Of a DNA stretch of 64,000 nucleotides, positions 1-18,106 are shown piece by piece (the first letter of the stretch is position 1; each line of letters starts with the position of its first letter). A program made the translations under genes and the position numbers. The notes below the pieces were generated by a model that saw only the letters and a list, made by a program, of their open reading frames with translations, was not told the origin of the DNA and made no database searches. Source of the stretch: Chelatococcus composti (GTDB lineage Bacteria; Pseudomonadota; Alphaproteobacteria; Rhizobiales; Beijerinckiaceae); the NCBI RefSeq assembly GCF_014201415.1, contig NZ_JACHEH010000004.1, positions 1 through 64,000 on the forward strand. Reading direction: 5' to 3'.

Positions 1-206
1 GCAAGCGGAGCAGCACCGTCATCTGCCCAGGCAATAGCCCCAAGGCCGATCATGAACTAAGATTGAAACCGGACCACCCTATGGGGTCAGGCCACAGCAC
101 CGCCGTTGTACTGGCGTTCTATGGAATCGGCCGCTGGATACAGCCTCGCCTGCGCGCTCGAGGACACGGGCCGACGCTCGATACCCTCGCCGGTTAGCAT
201 AGCCGC

Positions 207-362
207 ATGTCGCGGCTGGGCGCGCTCCATTCCCTGCACGCGCTGCGCACCATCCAGAGCCTTCCGCTTTACGGATCGAGGCAACAGCGCGAAACCATCG
301 ACATGATGATTGTCCGGGTGCAGCGGGAAACCGATCCCGCCCGCCACGACCTCTACAGGTAA
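207..362 (+). CDS. Possible 51-residue protein of unknown function in the element
   Basis: This short reading frame starts with ATG at 207 and ends with TAA at 362. A stop codon at 195-197 in the same frame shows that it is not the tail of a longer gene. The product is basic, with a Gln/Arg-rich middle and an end rich in charged residues, and has no recognisable domain. There is no clear ribosome binding site. A GC-rich hairpin at 370-394 lies just past the stop, which is weak support for a real transcription unit. It could equally be chance or a gene remnant. Confidence 0.2.
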   Translation: MSRLGALHSLHALRTIQSLPLYGSRQQRETIDMMIVRVQRETDPARHDLYR

Positions 363-369
363 CGGGTTC

Positions 370-394
370 GGCCCCGCGTTCGGATCGCGGGGCC
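370..394. terminator. GC-rich perfect hairpin, possible terminator
   Basis: A 9-bp perfect stem, GGCCCCGCG at 370-378 and CGCGGGGCC at 386-394, encloses a 7-base loop. It follows the small open frame ending at 362. No T-run follows on either strand, so it is not a classical intrinsic terminator and may be structural only. Confidence 0.3.
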
Positions 395-555
395 ACCACT
401 CAGACGCGATTTCCGGGCCACAGAGCGATTTTGAGGCTCTGGCCTAACCTCCCCACCTTACCTCCCACGAAAACCGCTCCACGGCTTGCCAGCGCCATCC
501 TGGGCGTTTGCGATTACACGTGGAAAGCTCCCATCCCCCTTTGGTGCCATTTTCA

Positions 556-661
556 GTTTGTCCGTCAAACGACCATTTGGCGGACATTCGTAATGTGTCC
601 AGTTTGGAGCCGTTTGCGACGAGTTTGCGGACAGAATAGAAAGGCGGACAGAAAGCGGACA
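556..661. repeat. Cluster of short GCGGACA repeats with an inverted copy
   Basis: GCGGACA occurs at 580-586, 627-633, 644-650 and 655-661. An inverted CGGACA (TGTCCG) lies at 559-564 inside a small palindrome made of GTTTG (556-560) and CAAAC (566-570). Four exact direct copies of a 7-mer within 82 bp is far more than chance predicts. They may be binding sites for an element protein such as RepA, an excisionase or a partition protein. No matching protein can be assigned. Confidence 0.5.
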
Positions 662-822
662 CCTACGACAGACCGAAAGCCGTAGCCTGCTAGGCGCGAA
701 GCTTTATGAGAAATCAGGGTCAGGGCGAGCTTGGTTGGCGTTAAAAGAAAGATAAATGTTAAATCTCGCGCGCGCGTTACGGTTTCTAAAGGCCTTACGC
801 TCTAAGGCTTTGCAGGTGGATT

Positions 823-912
823 GCGTTCCTAAAAGCACGAAGTCGGGCGTTCCTAAAAGCACGATTTGATCCACAAGCGAGCGTTCCTGAAAGCACGATG
901 TGATTCACAGGG
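823..912 (+). repeat. Three iterons, presumed RepA binding sites
   Basis: The 18-base unit GCGTTCCTAAAAGCACGA is present exactly at 823-840 and 847-864, and with one change (A to G at the ninth base) at 881-898. Starts are 24 and 34 bp apart. Copies two and three stay similar for about 14 more bases, where both read GAT-T/G-TGAT-C/T-CACA, so the repeat there is about 32 bp long. Position next to repA suggests iterons. Confidence 0.8.
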
Positions 913-921
913 AAGGCCTAT

Positions 922-930
922 TTATCCACA
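922..930 (+). promoter_or_regulatory. DnaA box
   Basis: TTATCCACA is an exact match to the bacterial DnaA-box consensus, 24 bp after the last iteron core. Its place beside the iterons and repA makes host DnaA recruitment to the element's origin likely. Confidence 0.65.
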
Positions 931-968
931 GGATGCAGCCCACAAAGGCTATGGCGCAGCACGGGCGT

Positions 969-1937
969 TTACGCCCCTTGGGGCCGCTTCCGGGCTTTGC
1001 GGACGTAGGCCTTCTCATGGGCTTGCACGGACGCATGGGGCCGCCCGGCGAGCATGTCTCGTACCTCGGCCAACTTACCCTTGGGGCCGTTGGCGTAGAA
1101 CGTCACCATGTCCCGGTCGGCATCGAAGGCCATCAGATAGTCCGGCAGATCGCCGGACTCGGCCAGCGCCTTCAGGTCGAAACGGAAGCGCCGAAGCGCA
1201 GCGGTGCTGCCGCTCTTTTGGTGCAGGACGGCTAACGATACCCGCCATCTCGGTTGCTCGCCGCAGTGCTTGCGGGCCAACTCATAGATGCGCCGATCCA
1301 ACGGCTTGCGCAGCCGAAAATAGGAGCGGGATAAGGTCAACACCCGCTTGGCCTCGACCGAACGGAACAGCCAGCGCGGCAAGTCCACTTCGACGGCCAC
1401 CATACGGTCATTGTCGAGCGACTTCTCGACCACTCGCCAACTGTCGATCAAGCCGAAACCCCGCCGCTCACGCTGCCCGTTCGTCTCGATGTTGGTTTCG
1501 ATAACGGTACCTTTCAGGCGTCGCAACATGTCCGCCAAGCGCTCGTAGGCGCGGCCGCTGGTGCCACGGTTGGTAACAGTCAGGAAGTCGAATGCGGTAA
1601 AGCGGACCGTGGGCGTAATTTCCCGGCCTCGGTTGGCGGCTTCGACCAATTGGCTAATGCAGTAGATCCACAAATCCTTGTCGTGGATGGTCGCGCAGCC
1701 AGTTGCACCGGGCAGCACCGTAACTCTATGGCCGTTACGCTCATAGACGCGCACGCGCTTGTCACCGGCGCGAAGCGCGAACAGTGGATGCTCCATGCTG
1801 GCCGTGTCGTCTTTGAGCGAGGCATCGATGATGTCGGCTACGAAGAAACCGCCTTGCCGGCGACGGTCAGGCGCGAGGCGTGTGGCGGCCTCGTGATCCA
1901 TGCGCTCGACCCGGCTCTCGTTCGGTGCGATGAACAC
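969..1937 (-). CDS. repA: Plasmid replication initiator protein, RepA (RPA family)
   Basis: The 322-residue product has the features of the replication initiator protein A family of iteron plasmids: an N-terminal GGFFVADIID segment near residue 29, then a long mixed helical region with several Arg/Lys-rich helices, and a basic C-terminus. Such proteins bind iterons and melt the origin with DnaA and the host helicase. The start is GTG at 1937, preceded by GAGAG; ATG at 1901 is a shorter alternative. It follows the AlpA-like gene by 13 bp in the same direction, so the two are probably co-transcribed. The iterons lie just past its stop, which fits an initiator acting on its own origin. Family assignment comes from sequence character, not a database search. 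Confidence 0.8.
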   Translation of the reverse strand: MFIAPNESRVERMDHEAATRLAPDRRRQGGFFVADIIDASLKDDTASMEHPLFALRAGDKRVRVYERNGHRVTVLPGATGCATIHDKDLWIYCISQLVEAANRGREITPTVRFTAFDFLTVTNRGTSGRAYERLADMLRRLKGTVIETNIETNGQRERRGFGLIDSWRVVEKSLDNDRMVAVEVDLPRWLFRSVEAKRVLTLSRSYFRLRKPLDRRIYELARKHCGEQPRWRVSLAVLHQKSGSTAALRRFRFDLKALAESGDLPDYLMAFDADRDMVTFYANGPKGKLAEVRDMLAGRPHASVQAHEKAYVRKARKRPQGA

Positions 1938-1950
1938 GGATCAGCGACTC

Positions 1951-2175
1951 TCAGGCCCCCATCCCGGGACGGGCGGCTTGAATGCCCGACGACTTGCGCG
2001 TCTCAATCCATTGCTCCACGTCGGCCAGATCCCAGGCGACGTTCCGGCTAGTTAGTGCTATGCGGCGCGGGAATTCACCTCGCTGCTCCAAGTTGTAAAT
2101 CGTGCGCTCGCACAGCGGGATCATCGCCAACAGCTTCTTTTTATTGATGAGAGTCCTGCTCGTCTTTGCTTGCAT
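1951..2175 (-). CDS. AlpA-like helix-turn-helix regulator / excisionase
   Basis: This 74-residue protein has the MerR-like winged helix typical of AlpA regulators and excisionases: an N-terminal LINKKKLLAMIP segment, the helix-turn-helix core CERTIYNLEQRGEFPRR at about residues 21-37, and the WDLADVEQWIETRK segment near the end. In P4-like elements AlpA activates the integrase gene or acts as directionality factor. The start is ATG at 2175 because GGAGGT lies seven bases upstream; an earlier in-frame ATG at 2196 lacks such a site. It lies upstream of repA, suggesting that replication and excision are controlled together (inference). Confidence 0.8.
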   Translation of the reverse strand: MQAKTSRTLINKKKLLAMIPLCERTIYNLEQRGEFPRRIALTSRNVAWDLADVEQWIETRKSSGIQAARPGMGA

Positions 2176-2259
2176 GCTTTGACCTCCATCAGTCACTTTC
2201 GAATGCGTGCCTGATGGTGCCCCGCAATACAGATTGCATCGACCTAATGATTGGCTAAA

Positions 2260-3240
2260 ATGGTTGACATGAAAAATCAGCCGACCATTACCGTCTGGGA
2301 CGGGTGCGATCCCACCGTTTCAAAGGCCATCGGACAATTTCAGGATCGCTGGAAGCCCTACTCCGAGTCCGGGAAGCGCTACCCCATCGCTCGGCTTATC
2401 GAAGAACTCATTGACCCCGCTGTTGCGGCATACTCAGCAACGCTTCCGTCTCGTTACGTCGGCCACATCCCCGGCGCAGGAACGGGCGTGGCCTTCAGCG
2501 AGATTGTCCGACTGGTCGGGCTCACTGCGATGGTGCGTTTACAGCGCCAGTTGCTTCGAGCGTTTGTCCTCACAGAGGACCAACAGTCCCCGCGAGATCA
2601 GCGATTTGTCGCGACACTTGAATCTTTGATTGAGTTGGTTTGGGCCTGCGCTCGTAAGCGTCCCGCGAAAAGGCAGGTGCGCAATACTCGCCTGAACGGG
2701 CAACGCTTGCAGGGCTTTTGCCGCTTTTGCGGCGAACTCGCGGAGTTGGCTTCCTTCGCCGCAGGAAGCGACGCGCCCAAAGCGGACGATGCAGACGAGC
2801 AGCTCCGCCTGAGCAACCTGTACTGCGTGGACCACCGGCCCAAGTTAGCGAATGGCGCATGGAATCCTGCGTACAGGCAAGCGAAACGCTCCGTGGCGCA
2901 GTTCGATCTCGAACTAGAAAGACTCACCCGACAATGCGCAATGCGGGGCGCGCCGCAAGCGAAATCTGGCGACGAACTGGTCGACGGCTACATCCTCCAT
3001 TACATGCTCGGACAGACGTTGCAGCCGGCGGATGAAGCCGAGCTGCGAAACCGAGCACGCCTAATGGTGGACTCGAAATTGTCGGATCGAAAAAAGCAGA
3101 TACTGATGCTTCAGCGAGCTGGCTTCAACCAGTCTGAGATTGCCCGCAGACTAGGTATTGAACGGCAAGCTGTATCGAAGGCCATTGCCTCGATCCCCCA
3201 GATATTTCGACTGAGCTTGCCAAAGCGCTCTGCCCGCTAA
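2260..3240 (+). CDS. Element protein with CxxC/CxxH pair and C-terminal HTH, function unknown
   Basis: I do not recognise the family of this 326-residue protein. A pair of metal-binding-like motifs, CRFCGE (about residue 155) and YCVDH (about 190), suggests a zinc finger. Near the C-terminus, after a polar linker, the segment KKQILMLQRAGFNQSEIARRLGIERQAVSKAI reads as a helix-turn-helix resembling sigma-70 region 4 or LuxR-type recognition helices; this stretch is longer than is quoted here as a motif, its key part being NQSEIARRLGIERQAVSK. It is transcribed away from alpA-repA with a 75-bp divergent promoter region. No strong ribosome binding site precedes ATG 2260; TTG 2251 is in frame too. 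It may regulate the element, but that is inference from the HTH and position. Confidence 0.6.
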   Translation: MVDMKNQPTITVWDGCDPTVSKAIGQFQDRWKPYSESGKRYPIARLIEELIDPAVAAYSATLPSRYVGHIPGAGTGVAFSEIVRLVGLTAMVRLQRQLLRAFVLTEDQQSPRDQRFVATLESLIELVWACARKRPAKRQVRNTRLNGQRLQGFCRFCGELAELASFAAGSDAPKADDADEQLRLSNLYCVDHRPKLANGAWNPAYRQAKRSVAQFDLELERLTRQCAMRGAPQAKSGDELVDGYILHYMLGQTLQPADEAELRNRARLMVDSKLSDRKKQILMLQRAGFNQSEIARRLGIERQAVSKAIASIPQIFRLSLPKRSAR

Positions 3241-3357
3241 CTTGTTCGCTCCGCTTAAGTGCATCCCGGCCGAGCGTGAATTGATCTCCGGCCGTCAACG
3301 CAGTCGCATCGTGCAAACCGAAGCGTCCAATAAAGAGCCCGTCGTTCGACAAAGAAA
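3241..3357. other. Short convergent spacer
   Basis: The 117 bp between the ends of the HTH gene and the integrase gene contain no obvious gene and no strong hairpin. Confidence 0.5.
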
Positions 3358-4572
3358 TCAGCAGTCTTTCCCCACTTGCGGCTTTTTAAGCGTCCACTCG
3401 TCTATCATGTCCGCCCAGTCCTGCAACATCGCCGCCCGTTGCTCCCGGTACTCCGCCTTGTTGTAGACAGCCCTCACGCCCCGCTGCTCGTGCGCAAGGC
3501 ACTTCTCTATCCAATCGGTGTTGTAGCCGGCTTCGTGGAGTAGCGTGCTGGCGGTGCGCCGTAAGTCGTGCGGGCCAAATTTGCCAAGGGGCTTGCCCTC
3601 CTTCTGCGCCAAGCGGTAGGTCAACGTCAGCACCTGATTGAGCGTGGCGCTGCTCATGGGCGCACTGGGGTCATAGCGTGACGGCAGGACGTATTCCGAA
3701 CCACCGGCAAAGGTTTTCAGCGCGACCAGCAGGTCCATCGCCTGCCGCGACAGGAACACCAGGTGCGGGTTGCGCCGCTTCATCCTTTCCTTCGGGATGG
3801 TCCACAGGGCCTCGCTGAAGTTGATCTCGCTCCACCTGGCGTTGGTCAGCTCGCTCTTGCGTACCATCGTCAGCAGGAGCAGCTTCACGGCGGCGCGGAT
3901 CGACGGCGACGTGCCGACGCGCTCCAGGTACTGGTACATGAGGCCGATCTCTTCCGGCGTCAGGGCGCGGTCGCGCGGCGCGAACTTCGCGATGCTGGCC
4001 GGGCGGACCAGCTCGGCGGGATTCTCCACCTTCTGCCCACGCTCGATGGCCCACCGATAGACTTGGTACACGATCTCGCGCGCATGGACGGCGGTGGCCG
4101 GCGCGCCCCGCTCGACGATGGCGTCGGTCAGGGCCCGCAGGTCTTCGTGGGTGATCTCGGTCAGCTTGAGGTTGCCGAACCTGGCCTTCAGGTCGCGCTC
4201 ATAGACCGAGCGCCGCATGTCGCGGGTGGAGTCGGCCATCGGGTAGCTGCGAAGCCACTTTTCCGCCCAGGCACCAAACGTCTCGGCGTCGCGCACACGG
4301 GCCTTCTCCCTGGCTTTCTCCCGGGCCGGAGACTTCCCCGCGGCGATCATCTTCTTGGCTTCGGCCAGGCGTTCCCGGGCCTCGGCCAGCGTGATCCCGC
4401 CCGGCCCGTACCGGCCGAAGGTGATGGTCTCCTGGCGCCCGTTGAGGGCGTAGTTGTAGCGGAACGAAATGGTTCCTGAGGGGGTGACGGCCACATACAG
4501 GCCGTCCCTGTCCGCCACCTTGTACAGCTTGCCCGTCGGCTTGAGGTTACGCAGCTTGGTATCGGTCAACAT
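3358..4572 (-). CDS. int: Tyrosine recombinase, P4-type integrase (guaA-targeting)
   Basis: The 404-residue protein catalyses site-specific integration and excision. Order of parts: an N-terminal arm-binding domain (DUF4102 type, residues 1-80), a helical core-binding domain (about 100-180) and the catalytic domain (about 200-385). The catalytic residues are visible: Arg238 in RKSELTNAR, His335 and Arg338 in GPHDLRRT, His361 in LAHEQ and the nucleophile Tyr370 in AVYNKAEY. Nothing key is missing. ATG 4572 is chosen because AAGGGAG lies ten bases upstream; an upstream ATG at 4599 would add nine residues. The gene is separated from guaA by 418 bp of repeat-rich DNA, the usual arrangement for an integrase beside its attachment site. 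Confidence 0.93.
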   Translation of the reverse strand: MLTDTKLRNLKPTGKLYKVADRDGLYVAVTPSGTISFRYNYALNGRQETITFGRYGPGGITLAEARERLAEAKKMIAAGKSPAREKAREKARVRDAETFGAWAEKWLRSYPMADSTRDMRRSVYERDLKARFGNLKLTEITHEDLRALTDAIVERGAPATAVHAREIVYQVYRWAIERGQKVENPAELVRPASIAKFAPRDRALTPEEIGLMYQYLERVGTSPSIRAAVKLLLLTMVRKSELTNARWSEINFSEALWTIPKERMKRRNPHLVFLSRQAMDLLVALKTFAGGSEYVLPSRYDPSAPMSSATLNQVLTLTYRLAQKEGKPLGKFGPHDLRRTASTLLHEAGYNTDWIEKCLAHEQRGVRAVYNKAEYREQRAAMLQDWADMIDEWTLKKPQVGKDC

Positions 4573-4664
4573 GACACACACGCTCCCTTGCAACACCATG
4601 CGTCGTGCGCCCTGCTTGAACCAAAGAGAACCCCTTACAAGTCAACAGCTTACGGGGACGTACC

Positions 4665-12690: not shown

Positions 12691-13491
12691 TCAACCTTGG
12701 CCATCGTCCCGCAGAGGCTGCGTCACGAGACGATCCAGCCGTCGTTCGCACGGGTCGCGGAACTCGCGGAGCCCGAGCGTCATGCCCTCGTGGCCCTGCT
12801 CCGGCTCGGGCCGGTAGGTGCCGAACAGCCTGTCCCACCAGGGCAGGTTGAAGCCGAAGTTGCTGTCCGTCTCCCGGCGCACTGCAGAATGGTGCACGCG
12901 GTGCATGTCCGGCGTCACCACAAGCCAGCGCAGCACCGGCTCGAGCCGCGCCGGGATGCGGATGTTGGCGTGGTTGAACATGGAGGTGGCGTTGAGCAAC
13001 ACCTCGAAGGCGAGCACCGCCGCCGGCGGGGCGCCGAGGACGAGGATGGCCACGCCCTTGATGGCGAGCGACAGCAGGATCTCCCCCGGATGGAAACGCC
13101 CGCCGGAGGATACGTCGATCACCGTGTCGGTGTGATGCACCCTGTGCAGCCGCCACAGCAGCGGAACATGATGAAAAACAACATGTTGCGCGTAGATGAC
13201 AAGATCCAGAATCACCACGCTCGCGACGAAGGCGAGCCAGGGCGGCACGCCGAGAAGCGGCAGGAGCCCCCAGCCCCGCGCCTCGACAGCGATCGCGATG
13301 CCAACCGCCGAGGCCGGCGCCACCAGGCGCACCACGAGCACGTCGACGACGAGAATTGCGAGGTTGTTCGTCCAGCGCACCGGCCGGTCAGCCGCATCGT
13401 GCCGGCGCGGAGCCAGCGCCTCCCACAGCGCCATGGCCGCGAAGACGGCGAGGAAGGCACCGAGCCTGATAGCGGCTTCGCCCGTCAGCAT
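12691..13491 (-). CDS. Sterol desaturase / fatty acid hydroxylase family membrane protein
   Basis: The 266-residue integral membrane protein has the di-iron histidine clusters of the family: HVVFHH (about 102-107), HRVHH (about 115-119), NHANI region and a second HRVHH (about 197-201). Four to five hydrophobic helices surround them. The family inserts hydroxyl groups or double bonds in lipids, carotenoids or sterol-like substrates using oxygen; the substrate here is unknown. Upstream DNA carries three regularly spaced GANTC-containing repeats. A 67-bp gap separates its stop from the HAD gene, read in the same direction. Confidence 0.88.
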   Translation of the reverse strand: MLTGEAAIRLGAFLAVFAAMALWEALAPRRHDAADRPVRWTNNLAILVVDVLVVRLVAPASAVGIAIAVEARGWGLLPLLGVPPWLAFVASVVILDLVIYAQHVVFHHVPLLWRLHRVHHTDTVIDVSSGGRFHPGEILLSLAIKGVAILVLGAPPAAVLAFEVLLNATSMFNHANIRIPARLEPVLRWLVVTPDMHRVHHSAVRRETDSNFGFNLPWWDRLFGTYRPEPEQGHEGMTLGLREFRDPCERRLDRLVTQPLRDDGQG

Positions 13492-15652: not shown

Positions 15653-17926
15653 TCAACCGGAGGACGATTCGGACATTCGCGGCGCGGATGCCTGCCGGCC
15701 CGGCAGGCCGCTGCAGGCCAGCGGCACCAGCAGTCCCAGCACGAACCAGAAGATGCGCTGGTAGAAGAAATCCTGCGACATCCCGCCGAGGCAGAAGACG
15801 GTGAGGCAGATGAGCGCCGCATTGGCAGGCACGGCCGTGTCAGGCCTGCCGCGCTGCCCGAGAAGGCCACGCACGAAGAGCAGCAGGGCTGCGGCGAACA
15901 TCGACAAGCCGACGAGCCCCATCTCCGCCAGTACCCAGACGGGAACGTTGTGAATGACCTGGCTGGTCTTGCCCTGCACGAGACGGTCGTGGATGAAGCC
16001 CCCGAGCCCATGGCCGAACAACGGCGCCTCGCGCCACAGCTCGAGCCCGCGCCAGACAGTCTCCCAGCGCTCGCTGTCGGCATAGGCGCGTTCCATGCCC
16101 CTCGCGAAGGTCGTCAGCATGGCGCCTCCCCCTCCATCCCCCGCGAAGGTCGTCAGCATGGCGCCTCCCCCTCCGCCCCCCGCGAAGAAGAGGGACAGGA
16201 CGATCCTGACGAGCACCTCGACGATGGGAATGGCAGCGATGAAGCCGAGCCCTGCCAGGATGGCGAGAAGCAGCTCCCGCCGTACCGGCGGCATCCAGAC
16301 GCTTGTGAGAATGGTCGCCGTGCCCAGCAGGATCCAGCCGGTGCGCGACTGGGCGAACACCACAGCGACCACGAGCACGGCCGGAATGAGGTGAACGCCC
16401 GCTTTCGGCCTGCCGACGGAGGCCAGCGCCCTCAAGGCGAAGAAGGCCGTGAAGGCGATCACGCACTGGAAGGAGAAGGCGTTGCTGTCCCCCAGATAGC
16501 CCTCGAGCCTCACCACATTGAAGCCGGGCGGTGCATAAGGCGTGTAGGTCGTGACAAGATAGAGCGCGATCTGCATCGCGGCGACGATGGCGATGGCGCT
16601 CGTGACCAGATGGACGGCGCGCAGAAGCCGCGCCCGGCCGCTGTGCGCCCACAGCAGGAAGCCGACCCCGAAATAGGACAGGATGACGAACCACCCCATT
16701 GTGCGGTTGACGAACGCCCAGGACAGGAAGCCGTGGTTGACGTAGCCGATGGCGAGGGACAGGCCAATGGCGGCGGAAAGCAGCACAATCGGCGGGACAA
16801 CCCATCGCGCGGGGCGGATGATCGGCTGCGTCCAGCTCCAGGTCAGCGCGAGCACCGCCGACGCCGACACCGCCAGCAAATCAGCCAGGTTCACGTTCAG
16901 CCAGTGGGTCGGCATCGGCACCCGCAGCTGGAACATCACGCTGAGCGGCAGGAGAAAGGCCGCGAGCGCGGCGAACAGGCGGTCGATGTCGTCGCGCGTG
17001 GCGATGATCCGCGGGGCCTGCGCGCCGGGCCGCGCCCGCCCCGGCCGGATCGTCATGAAAGGTACGGCCACGAGGCAACCGATGACGAGAACGAGCGACA
17101 ATAGACCGATGGCGACCCCGACAGCTGCCCCTATCGCCGCCGGCACACCGAGTGCGCCGAGCACGTGGGCAGCGCTCAACTCGCGGATGCCCCAGCCGGC
17201 AAAGCTGATGGGCAGGGCGGCGAGGAACATGACCACCGCCAGCGCGGCGAGCGCCGCAACGGTCGGCACCGGCTCCCCGTAGGCCGAGAACTGGGCGTAG
17301 AAGGCGCCGAGCATGGCGCAGTGCGCGAGAATGGACAGAAAGAAGCAGCCTGCGAGCACCGACCACACGAGCTGCCCCGACAGCTGCGCGAGGAGCCGCT
17401 TCAGCTGGCGCATGTTGGCAAGCCCGTAGAGCAGCACGACTGCGATCAGCGACAGGATGAAATAGGCGAAATAGCCCCCGCCGCCTTCGACATCGAACAC
17501 GATTCGCCCAAGCGTGTAGGCCCCGCCGGCGAGCGCGAAGAGAAGCAGCGATCCGAGCGCGATCATGCGCTCGAGGAAGCTGAGGAAGGTGATTGCCGAG
17601 GGAGAGACGCCCGCTTCGGCGAGGACCGCGGACCTGCCCACCGCCTGGCCCACCACGCTGAAGATGAGCTGGTTGCCCAGATGCCCGAGCATGAAGGCAC
17701 GCGCCGCCTGCCAGACCGGCACCCTCAGCCCGAGCGCCCTGAACGAGTAGCAGAAGCGCACGAACGACAGGTAGAAGTTCAGCACGATGCAGAAGAAGGC
17801 GAGGATCGTCTCGGGCCCGATCCCGCGCTCGATCGCAGTCAGCAGGCCGCCGAGGTCAACCTGCATCACTACGGCGATCGCTGCGAGCACGGTCAGCGCG
17901 ACCGTCAGGCCGCGTCGAATGCGCAT
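15653..17926 (-). CDS. Membrane protein: flippase-like (LPG_synthase_TM) domain fused to O-antigen ligase-like domain
   Basis: The 757-residue protein appears to join two membrane modules. Residues about 1-300 resemble the lysylphosphatidylglycerol synthase TM / AglD flippase-like family, with the late signature PISFAGWGIREL and GALGVPAA. Residues about 330-757 resemble the O-antigen ligase / Wzy_C family: LGDSNAFSFQ, FAQSRTGWILL and GHGLGGFIHDRL followed by HNVPVWVLAEMGLVG, which holds the family's conserved His. The ligase part contains a glycine-rich insert with a 13-residue tandem repeat. The start at 17926 has GGGAGG nine bases upstream. Inferred role: moving and joining a lipid-linked sugar at the inner membrane. 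No glycosyltransferase cluster is nearby, so its substrate is unknown. Confidence 0.75.
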   Translation of the reverse strand: MRIRRGLTVALTVLAAIAVVMQVDLGGLLTAIERGIGPETILAFFCIVLNFYLSFVRFCYSFRALGLRVPVWQAARAFMLGHLGNQLIFSVVGQAVGRSAVLAEAGVSPSAITFLSFLERMIALGSLLLFALAGGAYTLGRIVFDVEGGGGYFAYFILSLIAVVLLYGLANMRQLKRLLAQLSGQLVWSVLAGCFFLSILAHCAMLGAFYAQFSAYGEPVPTVAALAALAVVMFLAALPISFAGWGIRELSAAHVLGALGVPAAIGAAVGVAIGLLSLVLVIGCLVAVPFMTIRPGRARPGAQAPRIIATRDDIDRLFAALAAFLLPLSVMFQLRVPMPTHWLNVNLADLLAVSASAVLALTWSWTQPIIRPARWVVPPIVLLSAAIGLSLAIGYVNHGFLSWAFVNRTMGWFVILSYFGVGFLLWAHSGRARLLRAVHLVTSAIAIVAAMQIALYLVTTYTPYAPPGFNVVRLEGYLGDSNAFSFQCVIAFTAFFALRALASVGRPKAGVHLIPAVLVVAVVFAQSRTGWILLGTATILTSVWMPPVRRELLLAILAGLGFIAAIPIVEVLVRIVLSLFFAGGGGGGAMLTTFAGDGGGGAMLTTFARGMERAYADSERWETVWRGLELWREAPLFGHGLGGFIHDRLVQGKTSQVIHNVPVWVLAEMGLVGLSMFAAALLLFVRGLLGQRGRPDTAVPANAALICLTVFCLGGMSQDFFYQRIFWFVLGLLVPLACSGLPGRQASAPRMSESSSG
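16103..16187 (-). repeat. 39-bp in-frame tandem duplication inside the flippase/ligase gene
   Basis: Units 16103-16141 and 16142-16180 differ at only a few bases, and a third partial copy (CGCGAAG) follows at 16181. The repeat encodes a 13-residue unit of the type GGGGAMLTTFAG(D), keeps the frame and lies between two membrane segments. High identity suggests a recent slippage duplication. Confidence 0.9.
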
Positions 17927-18106
17927 GCCATGGGTCCTCCCTGAATCAGGCGAAGGCCCCCCACGCCATAACGCCCGAGCAAAATCGCCAATTTCTGGGC
18001 GCAGCCGGCAGCTTTGCAGCCGATGGCGGGTGAGATTCAGCAAATGCGTTGCAACCTGCGACGCTCACCGCCCGGCACGGCCCCCGGAAGCGCGAACAAT
18101 GCGGCG

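Follow-up and report, generated by a model that had tools for sequence, protein, structure and literature searches.

A conserved fusion of an MprF-type membrane domain with a WaaL/Wzy-type ligase in Chelatococcus and other bacteria

The fusion gene and its predicted structure

The stretch analyzed here, called the window, consists of positions 1-64000 (64 kb) of contig C4 of Chelatococcus composti (NZ_JACHEH010000004.1). An open reading frame of 757 codons with an ATG start lies on its minus strand (Table 1), at exactly the place where the original prediction had put a fusion of a flippase-like domain and an O-antigen ligase-like domain. Alternative longer in-frame starts reach position 18043, and both Chelatococcus orthologues start at the same methionine as the 757-aa reading frame. 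The claim of a two-domain fusion stands, since each half matches its proposed family by Pfam profile and by fold. PF03706 scores 61.6 bits against a curated gathering cut-off of 33.4, and PF04932 scores 40.1 bits against 31.7, so the profile search proposed for each half places both above the gathering score. The PF03706 domain is also found at the same place by a genome scan. Pfam gives nothing beyond these two families on the fusion protein at E ≤ 1, hence there is no cytosolic aminoacyl-PG synthase domain, and NCBIfam has no family model for it at E ≤ 0.01, so the fusion has no named family there. Some distant family members fall under the PF04932 cut-off; one (L108) scores 26.6 bits and another (L107) has no match at E ≤ 0.01. 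The tandem repeat in the ligase half is absent from the two other Chelatococcus orthologues, which have a glycine-rich stretch instead.

Table 1. Features of the fusion gene, with positions in the window
Feature	Residues	Position	Strand	Description
Fusion gene		15653..17926	-	MprF-type (PplT/PF03706) domain followed by WaaL/Wzy-type ligase; 757-aa membrane protein; Pfam and fold
N-terminal PF03706 LPG_synthase_TM domain	10-282	17081..17899	-	Pfam E 1.1e-16; MprF 6LVF fold
Loop PISFAGWGIRE	239-249	17180..17212	-	Joins helices 222-237 and 247-257, the second predicted re-entrant hairpin
Arg-rich linker between halves	293-310	16997..17050	-	Low model confidence; predicted cytoplasmic
WaaL-like fold	312-742	15701..16993	-	VIA-align 2 with 7TPG: Z 21.7, 345 residues, rmsd 4.3
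PF04932 Wzy_C match	516-677	15896..16381	-	Pfam E 4e-10
39-bp in-frame tandem repeat, 2.4 copies, 13-aa unit		16092..16187	-	Low-confidence loop of ligase half before active site
His659 (proposed catalytic base) to Glu668	659-668	15923..15952	-	Both kept in 26/26 full-length fusions

The neighbours of the gene in Chelatococcus are a ppx/GppA-type gene and genes for an RlmE-type methyltransferase, an OlsE-like hydroxylase, and an MFS transporter, with tRNA-Gln upstream. The hydroxylase (12691-13491, minus strand) is of the fatty-acid-hydroxylase type and resembles the ornithine lipid hydroxylase OlsE, far under the cut-off of that family. Glycosyltransferase genes had been described as missing next to the fusion, and this is the case. 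The source genome of 3.7 Mb has 14 PF00534 (GT4) and 20 PF00535 (GT2) matches, none of which lies within the window. Three other PF04932 proteins and two other PF03706 proteins are encoded in the genome, so stand-alone versions of the halves coexist with the fusion. Elsewhere in the window, a phage-type integrase gene (3358-4599, minus strand) adjoins a GuaA-like gene by eye, and the G+C content is about 0.60 over positions 1-4000 versus about 0.68 in much of the remainder. This region is likely the edge of an integrated element.

The link to solved MprF and WaaL structures came from fold search and not from sequence search. A PDB sequence search finds nothing at E ≤ 1 with the fusion protein alone or with the alignment profile A3, and nothing useful with two stand-alone PF04932 neighbours. 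An AlphaFold2 model from a 12-row alignment has a mean pLDDT of 76.8 and a pTM of 0.79. Structure modelling had been suggested along with the original prediction, and it finds the MprF TMD1 fold in the N-terminal half and the WaaL fold in the C-terminal half. Only two PDB entries match the model in Foldseek under E 0.001, WaaL 7TPG (E 3.4e-6) and MprF 9GOE. With VIA-align 2, the N-terminal half aligns with MprF 6LVF over 260 residues (Z 21.6, rmsd 3.6), the aligned residues spanning 19 to 421. The remaining MprF entries have Z scores of 18-21, FtsW/RodA about 13, and all others 6.3 or less.

Two pairs of short helices in the model (71-84/90-102 and 222-237/247-257) lie where the MprF flippase domain has re-entrant hairpins (PMC11980842). 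Model confidence is low at residues 240-244 of the PISFAGWG loop. Positive charges sit in the N terminus, the 171-187 loop, and the linker. A topology with a cytoplasmic linker fits this distribution of charge, and it also fits the members that bear a GT4 domain, as their C-terminal GT4 needs a cytosolic C terminus. By hand alignment E249 fits Glu280 of MprF, which forms a TM7-TM8 salt bridge with an Arg (PMC8131360). The predicted TM8 of the fusion (263-290) has no Arg or Lys, and in this alignment no counterpart of the salt-bridge Arg is found on it.

Conservation, split forms, and origin

Several residues are conserved in every one of the 26 full-length fusions aligned. These include P239, G244, G246, R248, and E249 of the PISFAGWGIRE loop, as well as D349, H659, E668, and R724, while Arg528 of the SRTGW motif is not kept across all 26. 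The alignment left out L023, in which the gene is in three frames, and G085, in which it is broken in the draft. When nine divergent PF04932 proteins are aligned separately, no column is invariant apart from four glycine columns and those of the His and Glu that correspond to H659 and E668 (nine of nine rows). For WaaL and PglS this His has been proposed as the catalytic residue, and it is found in a periplasmic loop (PMC12800693). Asp replaces it in the ligase-half relative of one split pair, that of G415 (L097 8830-10155, minus strand).

Both halves are under purifying selection, and the flippase half is the more constrained. Values of dN/dS (Nei-Gojobori, Jukes-Cantor) for the three pairs of Chelatococcus genes are 0.24, 0.21, and 0.17 over the whole gene, 0.10, 0.09, and 0.09 over residues 1-292, and 0.33, 0.29, and 0.25 over residues 311-740. 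The dN/dS of the flippase half is thus about one third of that of the ligase half, and this lower value (0.09-0.10 versus 0.25-0.33) argues that the flippase half is not a decaying scaffold.

The fusion occurs across Alphaproteobacteria, and some members are found in other classes. Three of four Chelatococcus genomes have the gene, with orthologues in Chelatococcus caeni and C. sambhunathii at 82 and 81% identity, and within Alphaproteobacteria identity goes down to 22%. Full-length orthologues at these levels, at 57 and 39%, and at lower identity elsewhere rule out an assembly chimera, a frameshift, or a chance join of two genes. Full-length fusions in one frame are present in at least ten of 385 genomes drawn from the class and at least five of 398 drawn from the phylum, the source genome being counted in each; these are lower bounds because at most the two best candidates were scored per genome. 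Two of the fusions from the phylum scan, in G715 and G639, are outside Alphaproteobacteria. A search of 100 relatives with the fusion protein alone found full-length matches in G000, G001, G002, and G038 and two pieces in G085. A contig scan found 12 loci, including those of Filomicrobium, Blastochloris, Ferrovibrio, Hwanghaeella, and a Coxiellaceae genome. The three-frame gene (L023) belongs to the Cohaesibacteraceae. A second copy in G203 (L109 9160-11376, minus strand) has an intact ligase half and a flippase half that is largely missing or unalignable. The Chelatococcus genome without the fusion (G003) keeps the ppx match, and inspection by eye shows that the OlsE-like and MFS genes also remain downstream. 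Its stretch upstream of ppx differs, with no tRNA and no fusion there.

The two halves also occur as separate neighbouring genes. Unfused pairs on one strand, flippase then ligase, are adjacent in G415 and G403 (by Pfam) and in G497 (by a match to the fusion model), and in G163 the two neighbours are divergent (by Pfam). Homologues of the ligase half lacking a recognizable flippase neighbour are found twice in G282 and once in G112. Within L102 448-2999, the one in G112 lies beside a polytopic-looking protein, which might be an alternative partner. Two proteins called Wzx flippases by eye, L102 1659-2999 and L123 18340-19812, are not confirmed by Pfam at E ≤ 1e-5, so the MurJ-family protein of G639 (L124) is the one separate flippase considered below.

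At least two members have flippase, ligase, and GT4 in one polypeptide, of 1100 aa in G474 and 1122 aa in G203. The GT4 part is C-terminal to the ligase and matches PF13439 and PF00534 with E values of 1e-13 to 6e-20. Both proteins can be aligned across the whole fusion model and keep the His. Their Wzy_C match is weak in G203 (6e-6), and there is none at E ≤ 0.01 in G474. In the draft genome G085, ligase and GT4 are joined in frame, and the ligase half itself contains a frame break.

Phylogenetic trees suggest a single origin of the fusion. The flippase tree groups 24 fusions with the split G497 protein in one set (SH-aLRT 99), places the split G415 and G163 flippases outside it (82-88), and does not settle the position of G403. 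In the ligase tree, a branch with support of 94 separates 25 fusions, four split rows, and three ligase-only rows from ten stand-alone WaaL/Wzy proteins. The G497 pair is sister to the G639 fusion with support of 99 in both trees. The flippase tree left out C. caeni, which is a near copy, and the second G203 copy, half of which is missing; the ligase tree left out C. caeni. Both trees are quick searches with SH-aLRT support alone, and the sample is limited because the stand-alone rows were taken from top hits. The trees fit a course in which neighbouring genes fused once, one fusion later split, and GT4 was added later, but several of the branches concerned have support under 95.

Glycan genes near the fusions and possible function

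Nine of the 26 aligned fusions have Pfam-supported sugar genes nearby or fused, and in two of these (G474 and G203) the sugar gene is the GT4 of the fusion itself. PF02719 is found near the Blastochloris and YIM 77505 fusions, the latter also having PF03721 and PF05045, and a ManC type gene is near the Coxiellaceae fusion. Downstream of the G739 fusion are PMT and GT2 genes, with tRNA-Arg in between. Loci of the O-antigen type surround the fusion in three genomes. G639 has two GT4 genes, AsnB, Bac_transf, and a MurJ-family protein (L124) beside it, G715 has a GT4 gene nearby, and G189 has a PF04932 neighbour with a UDP-sugar dehydrogenase, DegT, and NeuB nearby. One fusion, that of Hwanghaeella, has only a PF04932 neighbour. 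For the other 16, including that of Chelatococcus, no sugar gene was seen nearby when ORF lists, whose flanks were unequal, were inspected by eye. Two candidate sugar transferases (L019 14236-15462 and L019 8329-9639) are unconfirmed in Pfam. By eye, L132 3719-5227 looks Wzx-like. Near two fusions, four to five proteins of about 410 aa occur in a row (L103 13558-19899 and L020 13031-19709, Ferrovibrio-like), and by eye they are similar to one another and have pentapeptide-like repeats.

It is fairly probable that the fusion couples lipid scrambling of the MprF type to periplasmic glycan transfer of the WaaL/Wzy type. It would be an inner-membrane protein of two modules, with an MprF-type bundle joined by the Arg-rich, probably cytoplasmic linker to a periplasm-facing GT-CB (WaaL/Wzy) glycosyltransferase. 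The N-terminal half would move lipid between the leaflets, and the C-terminal half would take glycan from a lipid carrier and, with His659 as the base, transfer it to an acceptor on the periplasmic side. As has been proposed in print for MprF, joining the halves may increase the amount of moved lipid that is locally available to the enzyme. In the preferred version, the moved lipid would be a glycan-carrying lipid that the ligase half uses as donor or acceptor. Making, flipping, and transfer of lipid-linked sugars are normally spread over a glycosyltransferase, Wzx, and WaaL/Wzy. In the GT4-bearing members, the cytosolic transferase might load a lipid that is then scrambled and used, so that all three steps would occur in one polypeptide. 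It is put forward tentatively that these proteins are self-contained surface-glycan machines, in which one chain links periplasmic glycan transfer to the passage of a lipid, either glycan-bearing or a carrier, between the leaflets, with the GT4 members also making the lipid-linked sugar.

The occurrence of the halves as neighbours when unfused, in four pairs, supports coupling. Against the preferred explanation are the MurJ-family protein in G639, the 16 of 26 fusions with no visible sugar gene, the missing TM8 Arg, and the Asp in place of His in G415. The original prediction that the protein flips a lipid-linked sugar and attaches it is possible as a whole, but flipping of the donor is not required. 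The nearest characterized relative of the N-terminal half is a promiscuous phospholipid scramblase; MprF of P. aeruginosa is reported to be promiscuous, and MprF to scramble many lipids with no energy source (PMC11980842). In the G639 locus the separate MurJ-family protein is a second candidate flippase besides the fusion. The enzyme fused to an MprF-type domain may set its substrate (PMC11980842).

Other explanations assign different roles to one of the halves. The C-terminal half could be a Wzy-like polymerase of repeat units with the PF03706 half as an accessory, which is possible but doubtful. PF04932 and the His are common to Wzy and WaaL, and the fusion is the sole WaaL/Wzy-like protein seen in the inspected part of the G639 locus, beside the GT4, AsnB, Bac_transf, and MurJ-family genes. 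However, a second PF04932 protein could polymerize at the fusions of Hwanghaeella and G189 and in G163 and G282, where the ligase half is split or alone, and solitary genes like the one in Chelatococcus do not resemble a polymerase tied to its locus. It is distinctly unlikely that the PF03706 half moves no lipid and only anchors or regulates the ligase. This would agree with the ligase-half homologues in G282 and G112 that have no recognizable flippase neighbour and with the missing TM8 Arg, but it is opposed by the slower evolution of the flippase half, the retention of R248 and E249 in all fusions aligned, the prediction of both re-entrant hairpins, and the four unfused pairs.

Glycan transfer by a ligase or polymerase leaves the carrier on the periplasmic side. 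The scramblase half may return spent polyprenyl phosphate to the inner leaflet and deliver no substrate, a role that is rather unlikely. DedA-family models share the double hairpin of MprF and the domains seem somewhat interchangeable (PMC11980842), flipping of undecaprenyl phosphate has been reported for DedA and DUF368 proteins, and in G639 the donor could come via the separate MurJ-family flippase. On the other hand, no PF03706 protein that moves polyprenyl phosphate was found in the parts of the literature consulted. The fusion makes the cargo of a PF03706 protein directly testable, since its partner is a glycosyltransferase whose periplasmic active site is defined and natural split and three-part forms exist. 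Movement of glycan or carrier lipids, if it takes place, would add a flipping route to those of Wzx/MurJ, ABC transporters, DedA, and DUF368.

Relation to known systems

The original prediction of a new type of surface-glycan export protein does not hold, as proteins of this kind are already in print. The MprF domain is described as often fused to O-antigen ligases and glycosyltransferases in PMC11980842 (2025), citing a 2022 preprint on PplT domain proteins (10.1101/2022.03.11.483950). This sentence, in the Discussion, was the one printed statement found on PF03706-O-antigen ligase fusions, and the text consulted gives no function for them. PMC12369386 names PplT in one place, a reference entry. 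No GT4-bearing triple fusions were found in print, the Hauser et al. 2022 preprint itself lying outside the search, and no literature on O-antigen in Chelatococcus was found. Overall, the fusion is real and conserved and its kind is known, and the split pairs, the single origin, and the GT4 additions are presented as new here. The split pairs and GT4-bearing forms are the parts most worth following.

The fusion very probably belongs to the same kind as the PplT-domain/O-antigen ligase fusions of Hauser et al., compared here through the citing sentence in PMC11980842; both domains are found in one polypeptide by Pfam and by fold. It shares with MprF the fold of the N-terminal half (Z 18-22 for six solved entries), the re-entrant hairpins, and the joining of a lipid mover to a substrate-setting enzyme. 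In contrast to MprF, it has no aminoacyl-PG synthase and no Arg on the predicted TM8 for the salt bridge, and its partner is a periplasm-facing membrane glycosyltransferase. WaaL (7TPG) has the same fold and the same motif containing the putative catalytic His, but identity is about 12%, the fusion adds an N-terminal scramblase bundle, and no LPS-core gene context is seen in Chelatococcus.

Predicted flippases of this family are connected with glycosylation in other organisms. All COG0392 (UPF0104) proteins have been proposed as likely flippases in lipid or glycan pathways, and archaeal AglD likewise has a PF03706 predicted flippase domain fused to a glycosylation enzyme (PMC5898192). The enzyme of AglD is an N-terminal cytoplasmic glycosyltransferase, whereas that of the Chelatococcus fusion is a membrane ligase. 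In gpgSDF of Pseudomonas aeruginosa, a GT4 enzyme serves the same glycolipid as a predicted flippase of the PF03706 type (COG0392), a parallel to the GT4 of the triple fusions, but the two are encoded by separate genes, the product is GlcN-phosphatidylglycerol, and there is no ligase (PMC12713373).
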